The position numbers were made by a program, and so were the translations under genes. Source: Clostridia bacterium (GTDB lineage: Bacteria; Bacillota; Clostridia; UBA1212; UBA1255). Taken from it: 43,091 nt of DNA. Every line of letters begins with the position of its first letter. The first letter of the stretch is position 1. The DNA lies in the NCBI GenBank assembly GCA_017935905.1, contig JAGBGO010000012.1, positions 1 to 43,091 of the forward strand, written 5' to 3'. The notes beneath the pieces are model-generated. The model searched no databases, had not been told where the DNA came from, and saw only the letters and a list, made by a program, of their open reading frames with translations. Positions 40,295 through 43,091 of the stretch are shown piece after piece.

Positions 40295-40320
40295 GATTTA
40301 AACCAAATAACTTGTACAAA

Positions 40321-40368
40321 GGGGCTGTCTCTTAACTACTCTTACTGTAGTTTTGAGACAGTCCTTTT
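40321..40368 (+). terminator. Intrinsic terminator after rubrerythrin
   Basis: GGGCTGTCTC (40322-40331) pairs with GAGACAGTCC (40355-40364), and an inner ACTAC/GTAGT helix lengthens the stem. TTTT follows. Confidence 0.9.
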
Positions 40369-40479
40369 CTGCGTCTTGAAAAATATTTTAAAAGTATGCT
40401 CTGTGCACAGGACTTTTGAAAATCCATATAGTACAATGACTTTGAGTTTATTTATATTTGCAAAGAAGAGGTGCACGGT

Positions 40480-41166
40480 ATGATGAAAATTTTTTCAAAA
40501 GTATTATTTATGACGGCTTTAATCGTTGCCTTGTTTACAGGAAATATTGTCTTTGCGCAGGAAGATGCAGAAGCAGAGAAACTCTATACTAATGGCGCAT
40601 ATGTATTTACAGTAAACGATGATAAAGTGACGATTGTGGAAGCCTCAGAAAGCCTTGCAGGCAGTGTTGTGGTTCCTTCTAATATACAGGGGTTGGTGGT
40701 CACGGAAATCGGCGCAGAAGCCTTTGCTTTTTGTACACAAATAACAGAAGTTATTGTACCCAACACCGTTTCTGTCATTGGAGAACGAGCTTTCGCCAAC
40801 TGCGTAGCGTTAAAGAATATCGTAATACCTACAAGTGTACGCTATGTTGGAAAAGGTGCCTTTCATGACTGCATTGCCTTTCACGATATTTGGTATCAGG
40901 GAACGGATTCCGCTGCCGGAAAGATCCATATAGACTCTAGTGATAATCAAATCTTTACACAAGCTAAATGGCATTACGATGCTTGTCTGGAAGCCCCTTC
41001 CTCTTGGAAGCATGTTTATAACAATGCGTTTGACAATCAATGCAATTTGTGTGGCGCTAACCGTACTGCATCTCATATTTGGATATGGGTTGCCCTCGTT
41101 GTGGGTATCTTGGTTGTGTGCCTTTGCGGTGCTGTTGCATACATATTGGCTCGAAAGAAGAAGTGA
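40480..41166 (+). CDS. Membrane-anchored BspA-type leucine-rich-repeat protein
   Basis: The 228 residues start with a signal peptide (KIFSKVLFMTALIVALFTG, cleavage probably after the Ala at about 27). A short BspA/LRR_5 repeat region follows at about 62-140, with VVVPSNIQGLVVTEIGAEAF, VIVPNTVSVIGERAF and IVIPTSVRYVGKGAF. A cysteine motif H-x-Y-x-N-A-x-D-x-x-CNLCG (178-192) lies next, then one membrane helix (199-223) and a KKK stop-transfer end. The domain should face the outside. The ATG at 40480 follows AAGAGGTG; the adjacent ATG at 40483 is equally possible. The TIR gene starts 20 bases after the stop, so both are probably one transcript. BspA repeats often mediate adhesion or ligand binding; the ligand is unknown. 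Confidence 0.8.
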   Translation: MMKIFSKVLFMTALIVALFTGNIVFAQEDAEAEKLYTNGAYVFTVNDDKVTIVEASESLAGSVVVPSNIQGLVVTEIGAEAFAFCTQITEVIVPNTVSVIGERAFANCVALKNIVIPTSVRYVGKGAFHDCIAFHDIWYQGTDSAAGKIHIDSSDNQIFTQAKWHYDACLEAPSSWKHVYNNAFDNQCNLCGANRTASHIWIWVALVVGILVVCLCGAVAYILARKKK

Positions 41167-41186
41167 AACGGTTATAGGAGGCTACT

Positions 41187-43091
41187 ATGTCCATCTTCAA
41201 ATGTAAAATGTGCGGTGGCACGTTAGAAATTCAAAACAACGAAACGGTCGCTGTCTGTGAATATTGTGGCACCAAACAGACTTTGCCCCGTTTGGACGAC
41301 GAGAAGCGGGCGAATCTGTACGACCGTGCCAACCATTTTCGTCGGAACAACGAATTTGATAAAGCCGCTGCGATCTATGAGCAAATCCTAAGCGAAGACG
41401 GGAAGGATGCAGAAGCCTATTGGTCTTTGGTACTTTGCCGCTACGGCATTGAATACGTAGAAGACCCTGCAACCCATAAGCGGGTGCCTACGGTCAACCG
41501 TGCCCAGTTTACGTCTATCTATGCGGATGCAGACTATCAGGCAGCTTTAGAACACGCAGACGGCTACCAAAGAACGGTTTACGAAGAAGAAGCCAAAGCC
41601 ATTTATGAAATACAAAAGGGAATTTTGGCGATTTATCAGAAAGAAGAACCCTTCGACGTGTTTATCTGCTACAAAGAAACGGACAATAACGGCCGCAGAA
41701 CGCCGGACTCGGTACTTGCCAATGATCTTTACCACCAACTCACCCAAGAAGGATTTAAAGTATTCTTCGCCCGTATTACGTTGGAAGATAAGTTAGGTTC
41801 TGCCTACGAGCCTTACATATTTGCCGCCTTAAATTCTGCCAAGGTTATGGTGGTACTGGGCACCAAACCGGAATACTTCAATGCGGTATGGGTCAAGAAC
41901 GAGTGGAACCGTTTCTTGGCATTAACAAAAGACGGCAAGAAGACGTTAATTCCTGCGTACAAAGATATGGATCCCTACTATTTACCCCCGGAGTTTGCCA
42001 GCCTGCAAGCCCAGGATATGAGCAAACTGGGCTTCATGCAGGATTTGATTCGGGGAATTAAGAAGATTATGGGGGAGGAGACCCATACGAGTGTGAATTT
42101 CTCGAATGCTGATAGTGCGAATAGAATGCCGGAGCGGAATCCACTCTTAGATCGCGCTTTCCTTTTTGTTGAAGAGGGGAATTGGCATAGTGCCGGTGAA
42201 TATTGCGAGAAAGTTTTAGATCAAAATCCTCGTGATGGTGAAGCGTATCTATGTAAGATGCTCATCGAACGAAAATTAAGTAAGCGCGAACAATTGGCAG
42301 AATGTGAACATTCGTTTGTAAACGATCTTAATTTCAAACGCGCAAAACAATATGGTAGTGCACTGCTTGTGGCAGAGTTGGATGGCTATACCACTGCAAT
42401 AGAACGACGCAAGGAAGAGATTCGTAAAGAGAAAATCTATCAAAGTGGAATTCGACTTTTAAATAAGACTGGAACTGAGGTAATATTATCATCCGCCTTA
42501 GATACGTTCAAAAGTATTTCCGGCTACAAAGATGCAGATGCACTGGCAGTAAAATGTGAGCAAGAACTTCACTACATACAATGTGAGAAAGTATATCTAA
42601 ATGCAGTAGCCTGTGCTAAGAACAAAAATGTGGAAAAGCAAACTGCGGCGATTGCTTTATTTGAGACGATTCGAAATTACAAAGATTCGGATGCGCGAAT
42701 TATATCCTGTAACAGAGAAATCGATAAAATTAATGCAGAATCAGAACAAGTACGTTACAAACAAGTCTTAGCTGCAGAAGAACAGCATCGTGCTGTATGC
42801 TATCGTGAAGCGAGTACTGCATTGAAGAAAGCAGAGACTGAGGCAGCATGTAAGGAAATTCGTGCTGTATTTGTAAGTTTAGATGACTATAAGGATTCGC
42901 GCGATATGGTTCAACTGTGCGACACCAAGATTCAAGATTTAAGATACGGCCCGACGTATAGGCAAGCAATTGCCTACGGCAAAAGTAAAAATGTTCAGCA
43001 GTTGGAAGAGGCTATTGCACTACTTGAAACGATTCGAACTTACAAAGATGCGGAAAAACGAATTGATGAATATAAAACACGTATAGAAGAA
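41187..43091 (+). CDS. Zinc-ribbon/TPR/TIR domain protein, cut off at the right edge
   Basis: The frame is open from the ATG at 41187 (TAGGAGG at 41175-41181) to the end of the window, 635 codons without a stop, so the gene is partial. Residues 6-27 form a zinc ribbon (CKMC and CEYC). Helical TPR-like repeats span about 40-100 and 130-150. A TIR domain spans about 154-290: EPFDVFICYKE, GFKVFFARITLEDKLGSAYE and NSAKVMVVLGTKPEYF. Glu 208 lies where TIR NADases have their catalytic Glu. From about 310 the protein is helical, with a YKD(A/S) motif at residues 447, 498, 568 and 619. TIR domains hydrolyse NAD or make cyclic ADP-ribose signals in bacteria. I have met this N-terminal architecture in gut Firmicutes; its role is not established. 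Confidence 0.85.
   Translation, partial: MSIFKCKMCGGTLEIQNNETVAVCEYCGTKQTLPRLDDEKRANLYDRANHFRRNNEFDKAAAIYEQILSEDGKDAEAYWSLVLCRYGIEYVEDPATHKRVPTVNRAQFTSIYADADYQAALEHADGYQRTVYEEEAKAIYEIQKGILAIYQKEEPFDVFICYKETDNNGRRTPDSVLANDLYHQLTQEGFKVFFARITLEDKLGSAYEPYIFAALNSAKVMVVLGTKPEYFNAVWVKNEWNRFLALTKDGKKTLIPAYKDMDPYYLPPEFASLQAQDMSKLGFMQDLIRGIKKIMGEETHTSVNFSNADSANRMPERNPLLDRAFLFVEEGNWHSAGEYCEKVLDQNPRDGEAYLCKMLIERKLSKREQLAECEHSFVNDLNFKRAKQYGSALLVAELDGYTTAIERRKEEIRKEKIYQSGIRLLNKTGTEVILSSALDTFKSISGYKDADALAVKCEQELHYIQCEKVYLNAVACAKNKNVEKQTAAIALFETIRNYKDSDARIISCNREIDKINAESEQVRYKQVLAAEEQHRAVCYREASTALKKAETEAACKEIRAVFVSLDDYKDSRDMVQLCDTKIQDLRYGPTYRQAIAYGKSKNVQQLEEAIALLETIRTYKDAEKRIDEYKTRIEE

Follow-up and report, generated by a model that had tools for sequence, protein, structure and literature searches.

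A zinc-ribbon TIR gene on a genomic island of a Clostridia bacterium and its relatives beside SPFH genes: a possible class of bacterial membrane immune receptors

Introduction

To our knowledge, most characterised bacterial TIR systems do their sensing inside the cell. Here we describe a TIR gene at the 3' end of the window, by which we mean the whole 43,091-nucleotide stretch that was analysed (the entire contig C40 of a 1.88 Mb Clostridia genome in 84 contigs), and compare it and its relatives with the closest described systems. The initial annotation read this end of the contig as an outward-facing LRR protein paired with a cytosolic TIR protein, and set the pair apart from Thoeris, TIR-STING and TIR-APAZ. 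Our analysis agrees on the outer sensor, the cytosolic TIR domain and the separation from these three systems; the unit of conservation and the catalytic residue had to be revised. No ThsA-type effector was found with the profiles used among the neighbours in the window (to position 43091) or at 64 related loci.

Thoeris (the TIR protein ThsB, or ThcB4 in type III) shares with our locus a bacterial TIR domain with a WxxxE glutamate. The likeness of the TIR profiles is weak (ThcB4 at 9e-7 and 28 bits, below the cut-off of 220; ThsB at 0.007), as are the PADLOC matches of the window's TIR protein (2e-6). The family described here differs from Thoeris in its zinc ribbon, TPRs, predicted transmembrane (TM) segment, outer domain and partner genes for an SPFH protein and a membrane protein (MEM), with neither ThsA nor another Thoeris effector at the locus. 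In B. subtilis, the soluble SPFH protein YdjI carries a zinc-finger motif close to the C-terminus, forms part of a PspA membrane complex and depends for its location on the membrane proteins YdjG and YdjH (PMC8581546). The combination of a soluble SPFH protein bearing a zinc finger with a membrane protein of the same operon recurs in our family, whereas TIR proteins and toxin-like genes replace PspA, and MEM, which has no Pfam family, is likened to the B. subtilis proteins by arrangement.

Biological conflict systems have been described that combine TIR effectors, exchanged effector modules and DGR/FGS lectin-fold ligand domains (PMC7159879). TIR effectors, module exchange and lectin-fold ligand domains are all found in our family, but an NTPase core, whether MoxR-vWA, STAND or another, was not seen here and the source genome has no DGR reverse transcriptase. 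DUF6273, the most frequent outer domain of the family, has a C-type-lectin-like fold and acts as a hypermutable ligand domain in phages; the phage receptor-binding proteins known as tentaclins share with our family this lectin-like outer domain and its variable C-terminal loop (PMC10743442, PMC11792537). Here, in contrast, DUF6273 is part of a TIR membrane protein of bacteria, and neither a template repeat nor a reverse transcriptase lies nearby. Animal Toll-like receptors likewise have an outer ligand domain (an LRR in our relative L111), one TM segment and a cytosolic TIR domain, although in our family the TIR domain lies on the N-terminal side, the LRR is of BspA type, and a zinc ribbon, TPRs and an SPFH partner are added. 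The resemblance is one of layout; common descent is not claimed.

The island and the LRR gene

By blastn of the window and of contig C4 against a locus of a same-genus genome (L149, genome G001), we located the left part of an inserted island at 40301..43091 (+). In G001, which has no TIR relative, miaB lies directly 3' of rubrerythrin; in the window, that place is taken by the LRR and TIR genes. Contig C4 (3,744 bp), when reverse-complemented, carries a 196-aa ORF, an SPFH gene, a MEM gene and the start of miaB. Homology to G001 breaks off at window position 40300 and is picked up again from base 2571 of the reverse-complemented C4, and these two breakpoints are 45 bp apart in G001. The rubrerythrin-miaB synteny and the proximity of the breakpoints together place C4 very probably downstream of the window. 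The insertion between rubrerythrin and miaB would then very probably read LRR-TIR-(gap)-196 aa-SPFH-MEM, and the gap may hold other genes. There is no exact end overlap that would join the contigs, and the last 192 bases of the window had no significant match elsewhere in the genome. A 10-base direct repeat, TTGTACAAAG, is present at both island ends (window 40312-40321, and from 2560 in the reverse-complemented C4) and missing from the empty site of G001, and could be an integration footprint or a product of chance. A phage or plasmid origin of the island was also considered and returned no matches.

The LRR gene (40480..41166, +) encodes a BspA-type protein of 228 aa from the ATG at 40480, which is better placed (AAGAGG upstream) than the GTG at 40471 that could also serve, and ends with the stop at 41164-41166. 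In a Pfam profile search it matched LRR_5 at 6.2e-17, with 62.1 bits against a cut-off of 27.7. Hydropathy predicts a signal-peptide-like N-terminal helix, the LRR, a TM segment at residues 205-223 and a short KKK tail, a layout which indicates that the protein faces outward. The LRR_5 repeats, with the N-terminal hydrophobic stretch as export signal, identify it as a BspA-type surface protein. The predicted topology of the pair, with the LRR protein facing outward and the TIR protein in the cytosol, is the one first proposed.

The TIR ORF starts at the ATG at 41187 with its own ribosome site (ATAGGAGG) and stays open up to the contig end. Both ORFs lie on the same strand at the coordinates originally assigned, and the 20-base spacing, from the LRR stop at 41166 to the TIR start, is exact. 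The absence of a terminator between them was borne out by a consensus scan, which found no terminator-like site in the gap and two weak stems within the LRR coding region. Farther upstream, RNA folding gave a strong hairpin 3' of rubrerythrin (40318..40368, +; -29.2 kcal/mol, z -7.9), which is probably a terminator and is situated within the island at its left end, so that the LRR and TIR genes start a unit of their own.

Alternatively, the LRR gene could be of an adhesin-like kind, have nothing to do with the TIR gene and lie at the island edge by chance, as might be expected where BspA LRR genes are common across the class and their pairing with TIR genes is rare. However, the source genome has only about four LRR_5 genes, which puts the chance of one adjoining any of its three TIR genes at about 1%, and this one shares a strand with the TIR gene, 20 bases away, within the island boundary at 40300. 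We therefore regard a chance neighbour as unlikely, if still worth serious consideration. The low chance of adjacency makes a link between the two genes plausible, not established. In the operon that it shares with the TIR gene, the LRR gene probably supplies an additional outer sensor, or an alternative one.

The TIR protein

The visible 635 aa of the TIR protein (41187..43091, +; 3' end lost at the contig end) have the order zinc ribbon-TPR-TIR-TPR according to Pfam, an alignment of 56 relatives and an AlphaFold2 model with a mean pLDDT of 90.7. The N-terminal zinc ribbon (41202..41269, +) consists of C6, C9, C24 and C27, all of which are kept in the 56 relatives; together with the TPR matches in Pfam, this upholds the earlier description of a TIR protein with a zinc ribbon and tetratrico-like repeats. 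The TIR domain occupies residues 158-280 (41658..42026, +) and belongs to the TIR superfamily by its match to TIR_2 (2.8e-13; 50.8 bits against a cut-off of 28), a domain present in every aligned relative. Foldseek matched the model to the TIR domains of SARM1, MAL and MyD88 with probability 1.0, at E-values that were weak (0.004-0.02) because the query was the whole protein, including the repeats.

The catalytic-type residue of TIR NADases is the glutamate of the C-helix WxxxE motif (PMC11374754). In the window's protein this motif is WVKNE (41889..41903, +), in which W235-E239 falls within helix 234-247 of the model and is invariant in the aligned relatives, and the putative catalytic E239 aligns with the corresponding glutamate of plant TIRs. 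The initial annotation was thus right that an NADase-type glutamate is retained but had placed it at residue 208. That residue, likewise an invariant glutamate, belongs to YEPYI, close to where helix 204-217 begins and outside WxxxE, and was rejected. The intact motif makes the window's TIR domain a candidate NADase as far as sequence can tell. The WxxxE glutamate and its surroundings are invariant even though the family diverges by up to 60%.

SPFH, MEM and exchangeable genes

A family scan of the genomes of 84,980 species yielded 54 loci, and gene neighbourhoods were surveyed at 64 related TIR loci, among which are a few duplicate records of one genome (L062/L110, L095/L096). The TIR operon family is common in gut Clostridia. 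Members also occur in contigs labelled as Methanocorpusculum and Flexilinea MAGs (L085, L107), through either binning contamination or transfer.

An SPFH protein (Band_7_1) is encoded beside the TIR genes at 46 of the 64 loci and MEM, a multi-TM protein of ~233 aa, at 44. The TIR loci are tightly packed on one strand, with SPFH and MEM mostly no more than 20 bases apart. Across 196 relative genomes, TIR was found in 17 and MEM in 18, with both in 11 (Fisher p 1e-9). The SPFH protein often ends in a C-terminal zinc ribbon (at L004, Band_7_1 at 1.2e-38 with a double zinc ribbon), and a structure model of MEM (pLDDT 84) had no meaningful PDB match. Band_7_1 and a membrane protein thus stand in one operon, as in an SPFH platform, which for the window holds by synteny only; the TIR gene also precedes SPFH-MEM at L084, L090, L091, L097, L101 and L113. 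The source genome has two further TIR copies, on contigs C26 and C32, and the latter, like some other loci, has no adjoining SPFH-MEM.

Often MEM and TIR, or two TIR copies, are separated by a gene whose identity varies by locus. These include RES (4.8e-15), DUF2971 (8.1e-13), RiboL-PSP HEPN (3.1e-14), DUF4365 (7.4e-17) and SIR2 (PADLOC, 2e-7) genes, as well as weak pEK499_p136 HEPN matches and unassigned ORFs. The C26 operon adjoins two DUF262 genes (L004 3617-7803) whose products are similar to defence proteins in PADLOC (SspE, HEC-06 and Orf5). At two loci (L134 5231-6982, L135 4517-6268), SPFH-MEM occurs without a TIR gene and is accompanied instead by a gene for a 583-aa TM protein with an N-terminal zinc ribbon and DUF6591. 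This replacement suggests a docking role for the zinc ribbon that the two kinds of protein have in common. The exchange of toxin-like genes and of outer domains would be as seen in biological conflict systems, and a defence reading gains support from the gene neighbourhood of the relatives, from which we infer that the system probably serves anti-phage or envelope-damage defence.

The same genes could instead form an envelope-stress platform, in which SPFH-MEM watches membrane integrity as YdjI and YdjGH do with PspA, and the TIR domain is a protein-protein scaffold without NADase signalling. Many TIR domains are pure scaffolds, and an SPFH protein with a C-terminal zinc ribbon next to a separate membrane protein matches the YdjI arrangement. 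Such a platform would explain neither the invariance of the WxxxE glutamate and its surroundings in so divergent a family nor the toxin-like genes in the variable slot, and we judge it improbable at roughly one chance in four.

Outer domains and the LRR-TIR pairing

The outer domains vary among the 56 aligned relatives: a C-terminal DUF6273 in 27, RCC1 repeats in 5, and LRR_5, WG repeats and SH3 in 1 each. A TM segment is predicted after residue 300 in 60 of the 79 complete TIR ORFs and is missing from the predictions for the other 19, so it is probable that the window's TIR protein is a receptor that spans the membrane itself, with the LRR protein as at most one sensor module. Within the source genome, the C26 copy (738 aa) has a TM segment, a T/P-rich linker and DUF6273, and the C32 copy a TM segment, a Thr-rich linker and a different outer domain. 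From these copies and the other relatives, the window's TIR protein probably ends in a TM segment and an outer domain encoded beyond the contig end.

The DUF6273 ends (L056, L062, L064, L066, L078, L112 and others) keep a WWLRSPG...VRPALWI frame and differ at positions scattered around it, and these variable 3' ends of the TIR ORFs resemble DGR variable regions. Diversification by a DGR was considered and rejected: no reverse transcriptase (PF00078) was found in the source genome, which is 92% complete, and no template repeat near the variable ends. The two tandem L062 copies differ without a clear A bias (14 and 13 of 45 differences). Some loci (L075 7108-17024; L111 from 5274 onward; L132) carry three to four TIR paralogues in tandem, with differing C-termini.

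The initial annotation had tied its reading to conservation of the LRR-TIR pairing in relatives, and the survey of the 64 loci largely went against this; the pair was rejected as the conserved unit. An LRR adjoins or is fused to the TIR gene at 4 of them, as a separate neighbour in the window and at L100 only and as a fusion at L073 and L111, with neighbours scored by motif count, which may miss degenerate LRRs. The L111 protein has the order zinc ribbon-TIR-TPR-TM-repeats-LRR_5, and LRR_5 is thus one of the outer domains used by the TIR family.

These LRR_5-TIR fusions, the 20-base spacing within one unit and the low chance of adjacency could also be taken to mean that the window's pair is an independent two-part sensor-effector unit, in which the LRR protein would signal to the TIR protein by way of its short tail or through lateral contact. 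Yet that protein has almost no cytosolic part, separate LRR neighbours are confined to 2 of the 64 loci, and the conserved partners are SPFH and MEM, which probably lie downstream of the window's TIR gene too; a self-contained pair is accordingly quite improbable. That the TIR protein targets an animal host by mimicking host TIR signalling, as the gut association of these bacteria and the nearness of the fold to animal TIRs might suggest, is extremely unlikely, as it has no secretion signal and its zinc ribbon, TPRs, TM segment and operon partners fit a bacterial membrane role.

Proposed mechanism and conclusions

We propose that the window's LRR gene and the gene of its zinc-ribbon TIR receptor open an inserted operon, which further encodes an SPFH protein and MEM. 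Recruited to the membrane by MEM, the soluble SPFH protein would form a scaffold there, and the TIR protein would dock on it, perhaps through its N-terminal zinc ribbon. The TIR protein's own TM segment would anchor it, with the variable outer domain (the DUF6273 lectin-like fold, LRR or others) outside. When phages infect the cell or other bacteria attack it, a bound ligand or a disturbed membrane would cluster the TIR domains, which would then consume NAD+ or make an ADP-ribose signal, and the interchangeable second effector (SIR2-like, RES, HEPN or nuclease-like) may add to the response. We give this operon and mechanism an even chance of being correct.

A literature search, which covered few subscription papers, found no paper on SPFH and TIR in one operon, and the larger SPFH-MEM-TIR system appears to be undescribed. 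Somewhat more tentatively, at a little under even chances, these genes may represent a so far undescribed class of bacterial immune receptors at the membrane of gut Clostridia. Its members would be TIR NADases that have a zinc ribbon and interchangeable outer domains (lectin fold, LRR, RCC1 and others) and are assembled on a flotillin-like SPFH platform, with an exchangeable second toxin gene, the whole being carried on a chromosomal island. If so, an outer ligand domain would be connected through the membrane to a cytosolic TIR domain on a flotillin-like scaffold, in a build like that of Toll-like receptors, and the surface sensing of attackers by bacterial TIR signalling would become testable.
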